Shown here one piece after another: positions 1,331 through 39,347 of a DNA stretch of 39,679 nt. The stretch is from assembly GCA_947259575.1 (NCBI GenBank), contig CAMYMU010000053.1, positions 1 through 39,679 on the forward strand, written 5' to 3'. A model generated the notes under the pieces. The model was given only the letters and a program-made list of their open reading frames with translations, was not told where the DNA came from and made no database searches. The translations under genes and the position numbers were made by a program. The DNA is from an uncultured Ectothiorhodospiraceae bacterium (GTDB lineage Bacteria > Pseudomonadota > Gammaproteobacteria > UBA6429 > Thiohalophilaceae). Every line of letters begins with the position of its first letter. Within the stretch, counting starts at the first letter, position 1.

Positions 1331-1844
1331 GCCATCATTGGTCAAGGTCACACGCCTGCGCGATATTGACCTGGACCAACTATCCGCATTACTGGCCCCC
1401 TATGACCTTGCCGTCCAATACGTCAAAACAGATAAAGCTATTCCTGGCAGCTTCTGGGGTGATGAAGAGGCGGGGCTAATCGGCAACAAACTCTATGTGC
1501 GGCCAGACACCCCGGTACATTCAGCGCTGCACGAGGCCTGTCACTATATATGTATGGATGAACAGCGCCGTCGCGACCTCGATACCAACGCTGGCGGTGG
1601 CTACGACGAGGAAAATGGGGTCTGTTTCCTGCAGATCCTGCTCGCCGAGCACCTCTCCTCCCTAAATAAAACACAGATGATGGCCGATATGGACTCATGG
1701 GGATACAGTTTCAGACTAGGATCAGCACAAAAGTGGTTTGAACAGGATGCCGAAGATACCCGTAACTGGTTGATTAAATATGGGATTATTGACGATAACG
1801 GCAAACTGACCTGGAAACTGCGCCATTTGGAAAATACAGGTTAA
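1293..1844 (+). CDS. HExxH-motif putative metalloprotein
   Basis: A protein of up to 183 residues. The clearest feature is HEACHYIC near residue 80, an HExxH zinc-peptidase motif, followed about 25 residues later by a glutamate pair (GGYDEENGVCF) that could supply the third metal ligand, as in ImmA/IrrE-type proteins. The family is not recognised with certainty. There is no signal peptide or membrane segment, so it is probably cytosolic. The GTG start at 1293 overlaps the upstream gene and has no clear Shine-Dalgarno sequence. A TTG at 1338 is an alternative that removes the overlap. It is followed after about 30 bases by the ComFB-like gene and is probably cotranscribed. Catalytic activity is inferred from the motif only. 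Confidence 0.65.
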   Translation: MSESSNAADKSNKPSLVKVTRLRDIDLDQLSALLAPYDLAVQYVKTDKAIPGSFWGDEEAGLIGNKLYVRPDTPVHSALHEACHYICMDEQRRRDLDTNAGGGYDEENGVCFLQILLAEHLSSLNKTQMMADMDSWGYSFRLGSAQKWFEQDAEDTRNWLIKYGIIDDNGKLTWKLRHLENTG

Positions 1845-1877
1845 GAAACCAGCAATAAATGACATAAGGAGAGCATG

Positions 1878-2162
1878 ATGTCCTTCGACAACATACACAA
1901 TTACTACGAGACCGTAGTCCTGGGACGCCTGAACGATATGGTCGCCGCTGAGTTCATCGATTCGGACCCACTTTTCCTTGAAGATGTTGCCTGTGTTGCC
2001 CTAAACCAATTACCGGCCCGCTATATCAAGCATGATATCGATATGTTTTATTTTATGACCATCGAAGAGCGTGAAAAGCTCGAATATGACGTGCACAAGG
2101 CCGTCACCTCTGCGGTCGAATACGTCTTACAAAACCGCAACAAGCGCGCCAAAGAGGCATAA
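1878..2162 (+). CDS. ComFB-like late competence domain protein
   Basis: A small acidic protein of about 94 residues. The central segment FLEDVACVALNQLPARYI matches the typical ComFB pattern of a DV-x-ALN-x-LP-x-Y core. Known ComFB proteins are small and soluble. Some have been linked to competence or cyclic-nucleotide signalling, but the role here is unknown. The cysteines that often precede the DV core are missing; only one Cys sits inside it. Two ATGs lie in tandem at 1875 and 1878. The sequence AAGGAG at 1866-1871 is 3 bases from the first and 6 from the second, so I prefer 1878. It probably belongs to an operon with the HExxH gene. Confidence 0.6.
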   Translation: MSFDNIHNYYETVVLGRLNDMVAAEFIDSDPLFLEDVACVALNQLPARYIKHDIDMFYFMTIEEREKLEYDVHKAVTSAVEYVLQNRNKRAKEA

Positions 2163-32091: not shown

Positions 32092-33435
32092 TTAAAAGAT
32101 AACAAGTATCTGTGCAGTTAGCCGATCATCTATGGAACCAAGAATTTGATTCGGTACCGCTGAACCCGCGAGATTAGGAGCTTCTGCATCACGTAACTCG
32201 TAGTTCAAAATGAAGCGGCTCTTCTTATTGAAAAAGTATTGTGTACCCAGAGTCAACGTCTCGAACTTGCGCTCAGCAGCGCTACTATTCGTTAAACGAT
32301 TATAGACATCATAACGTACGTCCACTTCCCACTTGGGTGTAATGTGATAGCCAAAGTCCATATAGTAACCATCAGCTTCACCCGTAGTAGCCACATTAAA
32401 TGATGATACTGCAGTAGCAGCGTTATTTAATGAACCTGCAACCGCACCACCATCGGTACCATTGAAGATCATACCGTCGGCCGTGATATATTCGAAGTTG
32501 GCGTGGATTTTTCCCTTGCGGAAAGTCGTACCGATACCTGAGCGAGTGCGATCATACTCGCCGGCACCGCCTGTGCCATTCGAACCCGAAAGCGTACGTT
32601 TGCCATCCTGATACCAGGCATACATCTTCAAGCCTTGACGTCTTGGCCCTTTACCACCATAGATGCGCTCAGAAGACCAATAAAGATAAGTTTCTTTATT
32701 GTCATCGTTATCACCTCGGGCAATACCGTTGCCATTACCAATCATCGCAGCATAACTATGTTCCCAGTCGCCAACCTTAAAAGCACCGAACACCTGAACA
32801 CCCGTATCACGAAATGCACTTACAGGACCATTAGGTCTGTTGGCAAAGGCCGACGTTGTACCTGCAATAGAACCATTGCCATCAAAAAAACGCTCCAGCA
32901 GCAAACCGTTAACTGCGCCGGTAAAATTGATGTAATCGAATACGTGAATGGCCTGTAAGCCTTCCTCACTGCCAGGAGTCTTGAACTGACCAACACGAAC
33001 ACGTGCACCCTTCATGTGATTGAAGGTGATACTGGCATCAGTGATTTTAGTGCTTCCACCACCCTGGCGGGTAATACCGTTATTACCAAACTCCGCGAGG
33101 AAGAAATAGTTCACATTGCTATCCAGTGGCATGCCGGTACCACGCACACCGATACGAGCACGAATAACATTAAAACCATCACTGGTTTTTAGATCTGGAC
33201 GCACTTGATTAAAAATAGCACTTTGACCTGACCAGGGTCCGGCTCTTAACTTGGTATCGGATGTATTTGTATATTCAGGCTGAATAAAACCCCAGACCTT
33301 GGCACGGGGTGCCTGACCTTCTCTTTCTGTACCTTGTAACATCAACCAGTTTGCGGCACTGGCTGATTGGCTTGTCATTGCAATCGCGGTTGCGCTGAAG
33401 AGGCCTAATAATATTTTTTTCTTAAATATAGACAT
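32092..33435 (-). CDS. Outer membrane porin (phosphate-selective porin O/P-like)
   Basis: 447 residues from the second ATG (33435); GGGAG is 6 bases before it but directly abuts the first ATG. A signal peptide MSIFKKKILLGLFSATAIAM followed by TSQSASA precedes the mature ANWLMLQG. The mature chain alternates hydrophobic and polar residues in beta-strand fashion, has long Gly/Asn/Thr loops, and ends LTAQILVIF with a terminal Phe, typical of beta-barrel proteins. The segment VRVGQFKTPGSEEGLQ resembles OprO/OprP-type porins. The substrate is unknown. It lies 55 bases after the dsrE-like gene and shares its ECF-type promoter. Confidence 0.85.
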   Translation of the reverse strand: MSIFKKKILLGLFSATAIAMTSQSASAANWLMLQGTEREGQAPRAKVWGFIQPEYTNTSDTKLRAGPWSGQSAIFNQVRPDLKTSDGFNVIRARIGVRGTGMPLDSNVNYFFLAEFGNNGITRQGGGSTKITDASITFNHMKGARVRVGQFKTPGSEEGLQAIHVFDYINFTGAVNGLLLERFFDGNGSIAGTTSAFANRPNGPVSAFRDTGVQVFGAFKVGDWEHSYAAMIGNGNGIARGDNDDNKETYLYWSSERIYGGKGPRRQGLKMYAWYQDGKRTLSGSNGTGGAGEYDRTRSGIGTTFRKGKIHANFEYITADGMIFNGTDGGAVAGSLNNAATAVSSFNVATTGEADGYYMDFGYHITPKWEVDVRYDVYNRLTNSSAAERKFETLTLGTQYFFNKKSRFILNYELRDAEAPNLAGSAVPNQILGSIDDRLTAQILVIF

Positions 33436-33490
33436 TTGCATCTCCCTTAAGAGCTTTTCTTAATATTTTTAGTTAGGGTATATGTTGTTA

Positions 33491-33940
33491 TTAAGGCTTG
33501 ATTAGCATGTAGCCTTTGTTTTTCAGCTCGATAATTCTGACTACACCAGCACCAACGGTAACTGCCTTGCCGTGAAGTTTAGGTGGGTATCCTAACTTCT
33601 TACCCATATTTCTTGAAGTGTTTGCACACGCACTGAACTTAACACCTGAGCCCGCAAGACTGGAAACGCGTCCTTTATTTGCATTATCTGCAAATAATAA
33701 ACGCAGACCTGGACCAAAGGCAACGATTTCGATATCGACCTGATCTTGTCCGTAGTGTTTAATCAGGTTGTTAGCAACATTAAGAACTAATGTTTGTTTA
33801 AAAGGATTTGGATCACTGATTTGTAGAATAACCTTGGTGTCTGCAAGTGACTGCTCTGCAGCATGTGCCGTGGTAACACCGACAAGCAATAAACCACTCA
33901 TCAATACCGACAGCATTACTTTGCCGTATTTCTTTAACAT
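33491..33940 (-). CDS. Secreted DsrE-family protein
   Basis: 149 residues from ATG 33940, which has GGAGG 8 bases upstream; an ATG 51 bases earlier would put 17 polar residues before the signal peptide. The signal peptide MLKKYGKVMLSVLMSGLLLV is cleaved probably after AHA (residue 27). The mature part has the DsrE/YchN-like pattern VILQISDPNPFKQTLVLNVANN, VDIEIVAFGPGLRLL, and a single Cys105 in VKFSACANTSRNMGKKLG. DsrE-fold proteins carry or sense sulfur as cysteine persulfide; the role here is inferred. It resembles the C-terminal domain of the nearby anti-sigma factor and is driven by a promoter like that of the sigma gene. Confidence 0.85.
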   Translation of the reverse strand: MLKKYGKVMLSVLMSGLLLVGVTTAHAAEQSLADTKVILQISDPNPFKQTLVLNVANNLIKHYGQDQVDIEIVAFGPGLRLLFADNANKGRVSSLAGSGVKFSACANTSRNMGKKLGYPPKLHGKAVTVGAGVVRIIELKNKGYMLIKP

Positions 33941-33986: not shown

Positions 33987-33998
33987 CCCACCTAATAA

Positions 33999-34024
33999 GA
34001 CGTGACAATGCACCAAAATATTCC
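33999..34024 (-). promoter_or_regulatory. ECF-type promoter of the dsrE-porin operon
   Basis: On the minus strand, GGAAT (34020-34024) and CGTC (33999-34002) are separated by 17 bases. GGAA(C/T)-N16/17-CGTC is the usual form of promoters used by group-4 (ECF) sigma factors. The flanks GGAATATT...ACGTCT are shared with the promoter upstream of the sigma gene. The transcript would start near 33992, leaving a leader of about 50 bases. Confidence 0.75.
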
Positions 34025-34102: not shown

Positions 34103-34128
34103 GGAATATTCTTCCGATCCACAACGTC
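34103..34128 (+). promoter_or_regulatory. ECF-type promoter of the sigma/anti-sigma operon
   Basis: GGAAT (34103-34107) and CGTC (34125-34128) with a 17-base spacer, and the same flanking bases (GGAATATT and ACGTCT) as the divergent promoter. The predicted start is near 34135, about 50 bases before the sigma gene. This arrangement suggests that the ECF sigma factor activates its own operon. Confidence 0.75.
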
Positions 34129-34185
34129 TACATAACAAAGCCGCTTTATAAATACCTGGCGTGCGATTGGGGAAAAATTGTAACA

Positions 34186-34758
34186 ATGAATTTGTTCAAG
34201 AAAATATGTCTACATCATAGTCTCAAACAGCGCATCGCTGATAATCACAAACGACTATATAGGACAGCTTATTCGTGGGGGCATGATCCAGACTTAGCTT
34301 CTGATGTGACACAGGAAACGATGGCCAAGGCACTGAAGCGCGTCAGTCAACTTCGTGATCCTAAAAAACTGGACAGTTGGTTATTCGGAATATTAATAAA
34401 TTGTTGGCGGGATCACTTCCGACAACAACGTGACACCGTCGATATCGATGAGGTTGAACTACTACACCAGGAGACACCTGAGAAACTCAAGCAGACTCAG
34501 GACATGGTCGATAGTGTTAGACGATCGATTGCACGCCTACCCGAAGGGCAGCGGCAAGTTATTACATTAGTGAATCTTGAAGGATTCAGTTACGCCGAGG
34601 TGGCAGAAATTTTAGAAATACCTGTCGGCACGGTGATGAGCAGATTATCACGCGCCAGAAACACACTAGCGGAGTATTTGTTAACCTATAAAACCAATCA
34701 GGATGTCAACCCGGAGCCTGTTAAAGTCGGGCAGGCAAAGTTACGGAGAGTAAAATGA
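34186..34758 (+). CDS. ECF (RpoE-type) RNA polymerase sigma factor
   Basis: 190 residues. Region 2 covers about residues 20-82: LYRTAYSWGHDPDLASDVTQETMAKAL (core binding) and LDSWLFGILINCWRDHFRQ (-10 recognition). Region 4 covers about 112-165: SIARLPEGQRQVITLVNLEGFSYAEVAEILEIPVGTVMSRLSRAR, a helix-turn-helix for the -35 box. There is no region 1 or 3, as in group-4 sigma factors. It overlaps the anti-sigma gene by 4 bases (ATGA), showing coupling. An ECF-type promoter lies 60-80 bases upstream. GGGG is 13 bases from the ATG, a long spacing. Confidence 0.95.
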   Translation: MNLFKKICLHHSLKQRIADNHKRLYRTAYSWGHDPDLASDVTQETMAKALKRVSQLRDPKKLDSWLFGILINCWRDHFRQQRDTVDIDEVELLHQETPEKLKQTQDMVDSVRRSIARLPEGQRQVITLVNLEGFSYAEVAEILEIPVGTVMSRLSRARNTLAEYLLTYKTNQDVNPEPVKVGQAKLRRVK

Positions 34759-35489
34759 CACAGGAAAGTTTTAACTACTCAGATGAGATATTAAATGCCT
34801 ATCTGGATAACGAACTTGCCAGTGAAGAACGCAAGCGGTTAATCGAAGACTTGCGTGAGAACGATGGTTTACGTCAACGCGTTTGCAAACTGGAACAAGT
34901 TCGCAATATGGTGTCGATCGCTTATCACGATCTACCTGATCCACAACATACACTTGATACTCAAACTCGCAACCTGTCTTCCTACGCAACGATTGCTGCC
35001 AGCATTTTAGTTGTTGTTGGTATTGTCAGCGGCTGGTTTGGTCATGCCTACTTGCAAAAGGATAATGCTGGGCTAGTCGCACTGGCAGACAGTGTGCAAA
35101 TCAATACCCCCAATGGTGCACAACCATGGCGTGTACTGCTGCATGTCACCTCTGATGATCCATATCGCCTGAATGTCCTGTTGAACGAGACGGAAAGTAT
35201 TTTGCGTGAATACCAGGCCAAGCAACAAAAAGTTGCTATTCAAATCCTTGCTAATGGCAAAGGCCTTAATCTACTGCGTAACGATAAGTCACCTTATGGT
35301 AAGCGTATCGCAGAACTACAGGAAAATTACGATAACCTTATTTTAATGGCTTGTGCACAGGCTATGGCTAGAGTTCAGCAAAAAACAGGTAAAGTAGTAG
35401 AGCTTCTCCCGGATACGCAGATCGCACCTTCTGCGATAAGTGAGGTATTAAACAGGCAAAAAGAAGGTTGGACTTACATCAAAATATAA
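34755..35489 (+). CDS. Membrane anti-sigma factor with periplasmic DsrE-like domain
   Basis: 244 residues in three parts. Residues 8-45 (DEILNAYLDNELASEERKRL) form an anti-sigma domain like those of the RsiW/ChrR type, without the HxxxCxxC zinc motif. Residues 74-97 (SYATIAASILVVVGIVSGWF) form one transmembrane helix. Residues 125-244 resemble a DsrE fold: WRVLLHVTSDDPYRLNVLLN, QKVAIQILANGKGLNLL and a Cys200 in NLILMACAQAMARVQQKTGK, parallel to Cys105 in the secreted DsrE protein. It should hold the ECF sigma at the membrane and release it when the periplasmic domain senses a signal. The family of the C-terminal domain is my assignment from pattern similarity. Confidence 0.82.
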   Translation: MTQESFNYSDEILNAYLDNELASEERKRLIEDLRENDGLRQRVCKLEQVRNMVSIAYHDLPDPQHTLDTQTRNLSSYATIAASILVVVGIVSGWFGHAYLQKDNAGLVALADSVQINTPNGAQPWRVLLHVTSDDPYRLNVLLNETESILREYQAKQQKVAIQILANGKGLNLLRNDKSPYGKRIAELQENYDNLILMACAQAMARVQQKTGKVVELLPDTQIAPSAISEVLNRQKEGWTYIKI

Positions 35490-35492
35490 TTG

Positions 35493-38400
35493 TTACAGAA
35501 GAACCCTTTCAATCGCACCGTGCTGGGTCTTGCTGATAAATTGCTTCTCCCAATCTCCACCTAATAACTGGTTGGCCAGCTCGACCACAATATATTCAGG
35601 TTTTAAACCAGTCTCAGGTTGGTAGCGAGACAGGCCTTGCTGGCAGGCAGGACATGAGGTCAGGATTTTTACTTCTTCATTTTCTACTTGTTGCTTGCCG
35701 ATTAACGATTCAATGCCCTTATGTAATTCTTCTTGTTTACGGAAGCGCACCTGAGTTGCGATATCCGGACGAGAAACAGCAAAGGTCCCCGCCTCACCAC
35801 AACATCGATCGCTTAATTCAACCTTTGTATTGGTTAACGTCGATGCAACCTTAATCGGCGCATAATGTTTCATCGGTGTATGACAGGGGTCATGGTAAAG
35901 ATATTTTGTTTTGTTTGTTTTCGGGAGTTGAATATCTTTCTCCATCAAAAACTCATGAATATCCATCAGACGACAACCGGGGAAAATATTTTCAAACTGG
36001 TAGGTCAACAACTGATCGATACAGGTGCCACATGAAACGATGACGGTTTTAATATCGAGATAGTTCAGCGTATTGGCCATCCGATGAAACAGTACCTGAT
36101 TGGCAATCGAAATCTGCTTACCTTTATTTTTGTCACCACTGGACTTTTGCGGGTAACCACAACATAAATACCCCGGGGGCAAGACAGTCTGTACGTTAGC
36201 ATCATATAACATCGCCATGGTCGCCAGGCCTACCTGACTGAATAAACGCTCTGAACCACAACCAGGAAAATAAAATACAGTCTCGGTTCCCTGCTCATCC
36301 AGATCCGGTTTACGAATGATAGGAACATGCTTATCGTCTTCGATATTTAGCAGCGCACGCGTGGTCTTGGCTGGCACCTTCGCTGGCATTGGTTTTGCCA
36401 AAAAGTGAACGATTTGTTGATGACCCGCGGTTTTACCCACAGTACTGTTTGGTATTTTTTTAGCTTTAAATACAGCATTAAATGCTTTCGAAGCAAATGC
36501 CTGGAGTGGATAAGCCGTCCGTATCAACGCAAGTCGGAGCAATTTAATCGTTGAAGCACGGGTCGTATTTAAAAAGGCCAGGGATAGTTTTGTCACCAGG
36601 CTAGAACGACGCTGTCCCTGTTGTCGCAATATCTCCCGCATTTGGATCGAGACATCGCCAAAATCAATATTAACGGGGCAAGGGCTCAAACACTTGTGAC
36701 AAACCGTACAATGATCAGCAACATCATTCATTTCATCAAAATGGCGCAGAGAAATACCACGTCGCGTCTGCTCTTCGTATAAAAAGGCTTCAATAATTAA
36801 TCCAGTAGCCAGAATTTTGTTGCGTGGCGAATACAGTAAATTTGCGCGTGGTACGTGCGTATTACAAACTGGCTTGCATTTCCCACAACGTAAACAATCT
36901 TTCACCGCAGTATTTAGCGCGCCTAAATCACTGGCCTCAAGGATCAGTGCTTCCTGCGAGACTAATTGAAGCGATGGCGTGTACGCATTTCGTAAATCTG
37001 CATCTGCAGTCAACTTTTTCGGATTGAATATATCTGTCGGATCAACTTTAGCCTTATATTCCGTAAAAGTTTTTATCGTATCTGGATCAAGAAACTCCAG
37101 CTTTGTGATACCAATACCATGCTCACCCGATATCACCCCATCTAGTGATTCTGCGAGGGCCATGATTCTTGCCACCACAATATCGGCTCGATGCAGCATC
37201 GCGTAGTCGCTGGAATTAACCGGGATATTAGTATGAACGTTCCCATCACCAGCATGCATGTGTAGCGCAACGAATAAACGTGACGCGCGCACCTCGGCAT
37301 GCAGTCCATCGAATTTTTTTCTCAGACGAGCAAAGGACTGACCATTAAAAATCTTGTTTAATTCCTGTAGGACACTCTTTCGGTAAGAAACAACATATTC
37401 ATGCCGTTGAATCAGGTGAAACAACTCTACCCCTGCCTGTTCATCTGATAAACCCAGCTTGTCGAGCATATTTGTTGGCAGATCTTTTCCACTTAACTTA
37501 TCAAGAATAATCTGCCAGGTTTCATGTGCATGGTTCAAAACATTTTTCGCCTGCTCAATCTTGGCAAGCAAAATATCTTTTACAACATCGTCAGCCAGAT
37601 CGGCAAACTCATCATCCAGATAGGGCTCGAGTATAGATACATCATCACTAAACAAAGTCTGTTGTACACGTTCAACAATGCTTAGTTTGTTCTCTATCGA
37701 TAGCTCAATGTTAATGCGCTCAATGCCTTCACTATATTCAGCCAAACGCTCAAGGGGGATAACCACATCTTCATTAATTTTGAAGGCATTGGTATGCGCG
37801 GCAATTGCTGCGGTACGGGCGCGATCCAGCCAGAATTTTTTCCTGGCCTCAGGACTAACCGCAATAAAGCCTTCAGCAGTGCGGTGCTCGGCCATCCTGA
37901 CTACTTCTGCAGCTGCCTTTTCCACTGATGCTTCATCATCACTGACGACATCGATCAGTAACACCATCTTGGGTCGATCATTGCGTGAGGCTTTGGTGCT
38001 ATACCCAATAGCCTTTAAATAGCGTTCATCAAGGTGTTCCATACCTGCTAACTGGACATCTGCCATATCATCAAGATATGTCTTAGTCTCAATAATAGCC
38101 GGAACCGCACGTTGCAAATCCGGATCAAAAAATTCAAGACAAACAGTACGTGTTTGCTCAGGCATGCGATGCAAAACAAATTCTGCAGAGGTGATAATGC
38201 CATCACAACCTTCTTTCTGGATGCCTGGCAGACCACCAAGAAACTTGTTAGTCACATCCTTACCCAAACCCTGTTTGCGTAAAGAAGGGCCCGGTATTAT
38301 CAGCGCTTCTGGCTCACCCATCATTGATTGGCCGTCAGGCTCATAGTGGGTAATGCGAAACTCTACCTGATCCTGTTCATGAATTTTGCCCAGGTTCTGA

Positions 38401-39347
38401 TTCATCCGATCAACGACGATCCAGTGTCCATCCGGCATCACCATGCGCCAGCTCAACAAATTATCCAGGGTCGTACCCCATAACACGGCTTTCTTGCCAC
38501 CCGCATTCATCGAGATATTGCCACCAATACAGGAAGCATCCTGGGAGGTAGGATCAACCGCAAACACAAAACCGCTCGCCTCTGCAGCCTCACTCACACG
38601 GCGTGTTACGACTCCGGCCTCGGTACGAATAGTTGCAACCGGCTCAGCATGTCCGGGAATGTGTTTGACCTGGACGGGCCCTAGTTTCTCAAGTTTCTCG
38701 GTATTGATGACAACACAATTGTTGGTCAAGGGCACCGCACCACCGGTATACCCCGTACCGCCACCACGAGGGATAATTTTCAGACCAAGCTCAATACATG
38801 CCGACACAACGGCTTGAACCTCATCCTCAGAATCTGGATTGATTACTGCAACCGGAAACTCCACCCGCCAGTCTGAGGCATCAGTGACATGTGAGACGCG
38901 TGACAGCCCATCAAAACAGAGATTGTCACTACGGGTAATTCTTTTAAATCGTTTACTCAGCCTTTTTCGTAACAGGGTTTGACTGGAAAACCACTGGCTG
39001 AACTGCGTCACTGCCATGCGCGCAGCCCCGAGCAACTGGCCAACCAACGGATTCTTGTCTGCGCGTGCGGCTATCTGCTCAAGACGATGCTGCATGGCAC
39101 TAATCAAGGCAGCAAGCCGTTTGCTATTACTGAGCAGATCATCCTGAATAAAGGGATTACGGGTGACGACCCATAGATCTCCCAGGACTTCTAACAACAT
39201 CCTTGCAGAACGCCCGGTTACCCGCTCACCACGGAGTTGATTGAGAACTTCCCACATTTCTTCGCCAAGGAAACGGATCACGATCTCTTTATCGGAAAAA
39301 GACGTGTAGTTATAGGGGATTTCTCGGATTCGCTTATTGGTTAACAT
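35493..39347 (-). CDS. FAD-linked oxidase/Fe-S oxidoreductase fusion (DUF3683 type)
   Basis: 1284 residues. An N-terminal DUF3683-like region ([17 protein letters not shown]) precedes an FAD-binding PCMH domain with [15 protein letters not shown] (about 193-207). The FAD-oxidase C-terminal domain has [10 protein letters not shown] (about 695) and [10 protein letters not shown] (about 740). Two [4Fe-4S] motifs follow: [11 protein letters not shown] (about 816) and [12 protein letters not shown] (about 878). Two CCG domains come last: YFPGCGSE...CCGYPQ (about 1025) and HDPCHTP...CCGEAG (about 1150). It resembles a fused D-lactate/glycolate dehydrogenase with its Fe-S subunits, passing electrons probably to quinone. 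The substrate is unknown. Its stop codon is only 3 bases from that of the anti-sigma gene. Confidence 0.93.

Follow-up and report, generated by a model that had tools for sequence, protein, structure and literature searches.

Organization of the locus

The window (the whole stretch of DNA that was analysed, 39,679 nucleotides) carries an ECF sigma/anti-sigma operon on the plus strand and, divergent from it, a gene for a secreted DsrE protein with a porin gene standing behind it. The features are as follows, with the evidence for each in brackets.

32092-33441, minus strand: outer-membrane porin (Pfam Porin_O_P, 46.7 bits against a cut-off of 20.9; start codon uncertain)
33491-33940, minus strand: secreted stand-alone DsrE protein with one cysteine (BLASTP, profile-profile alignment, model)
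33998-34024, minus strand: predicted ECF promoter of the DsrE and probably the porin genes (motif search)
34103-34129, plus strand: predicted ECF promoter of the sigma/anti-sigma operon (motif search)
34186-34758, plus strand: ECF sigma factor, 190 aa (ORF call, Pfam)
34755-35489, plus strand: predicted membrane anti-sigma factor with a periplasmic DsrE domain, 244 aa (ORF call, Pfam, profile, model)
34782-34928, plus strand: helical anti-sigma head, codons 10-58 (model; weak MucA/RseA likeness)
34980-35063, plus strand: membrane-helix candidate, a long helix, codons 76-103 (model; hydrophobic stretch in 84/85 copies)
35091-35483, plus strand: DsrE domain, codons 113-243 (profile, AlphaFold2 model, fold search)
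35352-35354, plus strand: codon of Cys200 (residue kept in 85/85 copies)

Open reading frames were taken from a simple caller, and their start codons are uncertain. The frame of the anti-sigma gene is bounded exactly by 34755-35489 (plus strand), and its ATG shares bases with the stop codon of the preceding ECF sigma gene (34186-34758). The sigma factor matches Sigma70_r2 (51.7 bits) and Sigma70_r4_2 (66.3 bits), both above the cut-offs, and the other sigma regions are absent. The divergent DsrE gene begins with an ATG at 33940 on the minus strand, and its product has an N-terminal hydrophobic stretch. Two distant relatives of the porin that were scanned fell below the Pfam cut-off or gave no match.

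A protein of 1284 aa (35493-39347, minus strand), which by eye resembles FAD-linked oxidase and Fe-S halves joined in one chain, ends beside the anti-sigma gene; homologues are present at 16 of the 84 stretches clustered. The FAD/Fe-S oxidase, rpiA and ilvA neighbours (16, 14 and 14 of 84 stretches, respectively) were set aside as shared gene order.

Architecture of the anti-sigma factor and its partner

The C-terminal 128 residues of the anti-sigma factor score 23.3 bits with the Pfam DsrE family (PF02635), above the gathering score of 22.7, while the whole protein of 244 residues scores 21.4 bits, just under it. A profile of 17 members matches MTH1491 (PDB ID: 1l1s) with an E value of 2e-14. 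In the AlphaFold2 model the DsrE part has a pLDDT mostly between 90 and 97, and a fold search with this domain returned MTH1491 with a Z score of 16.3 (110 residues at 1.7 Å), followed by ST0148 (2pd2; Z 15.2), YchN (12.4), DsrE (11.2) and TusD (11.1); the first unrelated row had a Z score of 7.0. DsrE and TusD are cytoplasmic sulfur carriers. The anti-sigma DsrE domain has its fold and the position of its one cysteine in common with DsrEFH, TusBCD, YchN and MTH1491, and the cysteine that is conserved in 85/85 copies aligns with that of MTH1491. Those proteins are free, whereas the domain in the window is tethered behind an anti-sigma head and a membrane helix.

The head is modelled as three helices (residues 10-17, 23-35 and 37-58), and the only candidate for a membrane helix is the one at 76-103. 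Membrane anti-sigma factors with a periplasmic part are known in RseA and MucA, and RseA also has a periplasmic partner protein, RseB. The present protein differs from them in that its predicted periplasmic domain is DsrE, and the likeness of the head to MucA and RseA is weak in a profile search (E 0.26 and 0.27, respectively). A zinc-type anti-sigma factor (zf-HC2) was rejected at 15.5 bits against a cut-off of 22.2.

The secreted protein is weakly matched by Pfam alone (E 0.088). It aligns with the anti-sigma DsrE domain in BLASTP at 8e-11, and the two families align profile to profile with an E value of 3.4e-26, Cys200 lying opposite the cysteine of the partner; the modelled partner matches 1l1s with a Z score of 19.8. 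A chance resemblance of the fused domain to DsrE was rejected on the profile match, the fold Z scores and this profile-profile alignment.

A sequence-only reading of the locus had described an anti-sigma head, one membrane helix and a C-terminal DsrE-like domain, and a divergent gene for a secreted DsrE protein with its cysteine at the matching place. Both parts of this description held: the first in the ORF call, the Pfam and profile matches, the AlphaFold2 model and the fold search, and the second in the three comparisons just given; both motifs that it cited, FSACANTS and LMACAQAM, occur in the proteins and align with each other. The predicted product of 34755-35489 is thus confirmed, at the level of profiles and models, as a membrane anti-sigma factor with a DsrE-fold periplasmic domain.

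Distribution and conservation

Matches at an E value of 0.001 were found in 50 of 96 related genomes. Across the class, 74 of 369 genomes matched the fusion profile at 1e-20, and the match was full length in 65, which belong to 39 GTDB families; an oddity of a single genome was rejected on this count. A spread over the whole phylum was likewise rejected, with 22 of 398 genomes matching at 1e-15 and three full-length fusions, all from the same class and one of them from the genome of the window itself. Nine loci from the phylum survey were opened and held two fusions and seven DsrE proteins without the head. Plasmid records gave six weak matches, none of which spanned 80% of the query.

Conservation was followed in 85 full-length copies from 83 stretches, one of which is the window, with two genomes that have tandem pairs counted twice; the copies were gathered by profile, a route that favours conserved columns. 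Thiohalophilus thiocyanatoxydans (L046) is a cultivated sulfur oxidizer among the bearers of the system. An ECF gene adjoins the fusion in 85/85 copies. In 56/85 there is a stand-alone DsrE gene no more than about 5 kb away (divergent in 46, downstream in 11), a porin gene lies upstream in 46/85, and both are present in 42/85; no stand-alone DsrE gene was found nearby in 29/85, three of which have short flanks. The genome of the window has seven DsrE-family places in 3.45 Mb, so that the chance of one falling in a 10-kb neighbourhood is about 2%. Judged from its sequences, the set of sigma factor and anti-sigma/DsrE fusion is a conserved system, and neither refutation named in the earlier reading came true, the domain having the DsrE fold and the genes occurring together.

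Some copies have a different neighbourhood. Two related genomes (L146, L151) have tandem sigma/anti-sigma pairs, each pair with its own DsrE gene. Among distant copies, a divergent TPR protein takes the place of the porin and DsrE genes in L121, L125 and L161, and a downstream protein of about 420 aa does so in L126 and L131; that of L126 has no Pfam match.

Within the anti-sigma factor, Cys200 and Trp239 are present in 85/85 copies and His130 in 81/85; the only other common cysteine, Cys44 of the head, is present in 58. The cysteine of the secreted DsrE protein is kept in 59 of 60 partners. These counts bear on the idea that the DsrE domain is a structural or oligomerization module only, with the true signal acting at another point, such as the head in the cytoplasm. 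In the accessible text of the source, ECF26 anti-sigma factors for which no DsrE domain is reported are tied to sulfur genes (PMC3511301), as such a module would allow. The retention of Cys200, Trp239 and His130 in distant copies, against the much looser retention of Cys44, argues the other way, and we regard a purely structural domain as very unlikely.

A predicted shared promoter

The motif GGAATA-N15..17-CGTCT faces both ways in the window: GGAATA, 16 bases and CGTCT occur twice, against 0.01 expected in shuffled sequence. The motif was first read by eye in 30 of the 85 upstream regions, and these 30 are included in the counts that follow. The survey pattern (spacer 15 to 17, CGTCT or CGTCA) is present on the sigma strand in 53/85 copies and facing outward in 40/85; 479 control windows (960 nt each, from the same stretches, both strands) contain no match. 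A looser pattern matched 54 and 40 of the 85 copies against 8 and 8 of the 479 control windows, and was set aside for its small gain and the appearance of control matches. Two results are independent of the reading by eye, namely the soxB test (see below) and the presence of the promoter in G605 and G656, two fusion genomes found later. Genome-wide, the exact motif has 258 sites in the 65 fusion genomes and its reversed pattern 152; with such a background, many isolated sites must be coincidental. Matches in front of rpsA (L253, L254) were set aside as probably coding, as were GGAATATAT sites within ORFs of L243 and L245.

The gene behind the outward promoter varies. A metallophosphatase replaces the DsrE gene in L139 (1-1362, minus strand), L141 and L143 (4494-6623, plus strand); for those of L139 and L143 the SoxB model is the best match, under its cut-off. 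L103, L106, L112 and L118 retain the outward promoter with neither a DsrE nor a porin gene found downstream of it, which would fit a loss of these genes. Two related genomes have, about 130 bp behind the promoter, a protein of 122 aa with a signal-like start (L256:5926-6291 and L257:5607-5972, both minus strand), which in L256 has no NCBIfam match. A genome outside the class (L236) has a stand-alone DsrE gene (1498-2085, minus strand) with GGAATA-N15-CGTCA about 200 bp upstream (site 2316, minus strand), which may be chance.

Link to the thiosulfate oxidation genes

SoxB was found in 150 of the 369 class genomes and DsrA in 118. SoxB or DsrA is present in 65/65 genomes with a full-length fusion, and SoxB itself in 64/65; the fusion is absent from all 206 class genomes that lack both. 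This co-occurrence list omits 9 of the 74 genomes matched at 1e-20, in which the match is not full length, and the Fisher p-values are too small because sulfur oxidizers are related to each other. A further 86 SoxB genomes have no full-length fusion, and other regulators must therefore exist. SoxC is present in 9/65 fusion genomes, so that 56/65 look like truncated Sox systems; it was rejected as a discriminator, since it is present in 9/40 SoxB genomes without the fusion (p 0.29).

At least 13 of 62 fusion genomes, drawn from nine families, have the promoter at a distance of 49-248 bp in front of soxB and in its orientation; about 0.013 would be expected. It was found upstream of soxB in none of 40 SoxB genomes that have no fusion, a zero that a scripted recount returned again (Fisher p 0.0009, which kinship makes too small). 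The 62 are those of the 64 SoxB-positive fusion genomes that have listed SoxB places (G169 and G327 are missing), with only the sites in L180 taken in for G205, and the 40 controls were drawn from those of the 86 fusion-less SoxB genomes with listed places. In the other 49 of the 62 there was no exact site within 300 bp of soxB among the matches listed.

The promoter also precedes soxX in five stretches (L243 to L247, with CGTCA in L247), soxY in L258 and unlinked secreted DsrE genes in L259, L260 and L262; the SoxX and SoxY proteins linked to it score above the NCBIfam cut-offs. In L244 it precedes a TsuA/YeeE-type transporter, a match under the cut-off. Two gene arrangements place the pair directly among sox genes: in L181 the ECF and anti-sigma genes head a sox cluster and are followed by soxX, two ORFs and soxB, and in L180 soxA, soxB and a DsrE gene stand beside the pair, with a second DsrE gene, a porin gene and a YeeE-like gene on the other side.

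In the genome of the window, the 900 nt around the start of soxB (C69) are free of the promoter motif, and chance appears to account for the remaining two exact matches (C19, C41). In this organism, then, only the sigma operon and the DsrE gene have sequence support as targets, and the porin gene is probably co-transcribed with the latter. Over the whole set of genomes, the predicted system is, for many Gammaproteobacteria, a strong candidate for the control of thiosulfate oxidation. The sulfur link drawn in the earlier reading is upheld by the SoxB and DsrA counts, by the sox genes behind the same promoter and by the invariant cysteine of the predicted periplasmic domain. The porin gene, the two promoters and the wide spread of the architecture go beyond that reading.

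The same gene neighbourhoods could suggest an envelope-stress system, in which the secreted DsrE protein protects the anti-sigma DsrE domain as RseB does RseA, until an unassembled porin or another signal removes it. A homologous secreted partner and a porin, both near the pair in just under half of the copies (see above), are consistent with this, as is the weak likeness of the head to MucA and RseA. The confinement of the fusion to genomes with SoxB or DsrA, the promoter in front of soxB and soxX, and the copies that have no partner gene nearby all point away from it, and an envelope-stress role appears unlikely.

Comparison with known systems

Control linked to sulfur compounds is described for ECF26 pairs, such as RpoE1/RpoE4 of Sinorhizobium meliloti and SigE of Starkeya novella, in the accessible text of two sources (PMC3511301, PMC6527743), and the ECF26 promoter consensus, with GGAAT at -35 and CGTC at -10, is linked to sulfite (PMC6527743). 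The system presented here resembles these pairs in its sulfur theme and in the consensus, which both window promoters and the survey match; the likeness is one of theme and promoter. The ECF26 anti-sigma factors are described by COG5662, with DsrE unmentioned in the text accessible, and their targets are sulfite-oxidizing enzymes (PMC3511301, PMC6527743). In contrast to ECF26 as so described, the window system has a predicted periplasmic DsrE domain, and its putative targets are DsrE, porin and sox genes.

The shared consensus, which is that of sulfite-responsive ECF26 sigma factors (PMC6527743, PMC3511301), raises the alternative that the signal is sulfite or general thiol redox, with Cys200 S-sulfonated or oxidized and the system serving mainly detoxification, like ECF26 in Sinorhizobium and Starkeya. 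A single conserved cysteine could indeed be sulfonated or oxidized. The genes linked to the promoter are those for SoxB, SoxX, SoxY and DsrE, and no sulfite dehydrogenase was noticed among the promoter-linked genes that were opened (no dedicated search was made), which makes the sulfite or redox signal rather unlikely, though sulfite is the chief alternative to sulfane sulfur.

ECF control of sox genes has a precedent in Arcobacter butzleri, where ECF sigma-2 activates them by experiment (PMC3445524); the portion of that paper available leaves DsrE unmentioned, and the comparison is by description. Other regulators of sox genes are SoxR (ArsR type), a DNA-binding repressor, and TspS/TspR, a sigma-54 two-component system (PMC10451225, PMC12194929); going by the accessible parts of these papers, neither is an ECF system. 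SoxR is reported to accompany complete Sox systems more often than truncated ones (PMC10451225).

No description of an anti-sigma factor with a DsrE domain was recognised in the literature searched, which had most subscription papers outside its reach. The architecture had been called unusual in the earlier reading; this stands for the literature searched, but not for nature, where 65/369 class genomes carry the fusion. What appears to be new is an ECF/anti-sigma switch, itself of a known type, with a sulfur-carrier fold as its putative outside sensor.

Proposed mechanism

As the sequences suggest, the ECF sigma factor and its membrane anti-sigma factor are likely to control the use of reduced sulfur outside the cytoplasm, sensing it through the DsrE domain and Cys200. 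The anti-sigma head would hold the sigma factor at the inner membrane, while the periplasmic DsrE domain, via Cys200, would take up or respond to a sulfur species. This would most likely be sulfane sulfur from thiosulfate and less likely sulfite. Sulfane sulfur is favoured for two reasons: the partner, encoded behind the same promoter, is homologous to the sensor domain, and the target genes serve thiosulfate oxidation. Sulfur on the DsrE domain may loosen the head or trigger proteolysis, and the sigma factor would be freed. It would then act at GGAATA-N15..17-CGTCT, switching on its own operon and the divergent gene for the secreted DsrE protein, the transcript of which probably includes the porin gene; in other genomes its targets would be soxB, soxX, soxY and unlinked genes for secreted DsrE proteins. 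The secreted DsrE protein probably brings sulfur to the sensor domain or forms a mixed oligomer with it, which would give feedback.

DsrEFH and TusBCD are sulfur relays and offer a model for a mixed DsrE oligomer that passes sulfur on. A more specific form of the mechanism can be proposed tentatively, as possible though not the probable outcome: the anti-sigma DsrE domain would be a sulfane-sulfur receptor, the secreted DsrE protein would relay sulfur derived from thiosulfate or polysulfide to Cys200 within a mixed oligomer, and persulfidation would free the sigma factor to turn on sox, DsrE and porin genes. If this is true, many gammaproteobacterial sulfur oxidizers use a sulfur-relay fold to receive signals from the outside.

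The control of thiosulfate-use genes in sulfur oxidizers is still poorly understood. The system described here would give many gammaproteobacterial sulfur oxidizers a candidate regulator for which a sensor domain and one cysteine can be named, along with a defined promoter and predicted target genes, and the DsrE fold, known as a sulfur carrier, would gain a likely role as a receptor.
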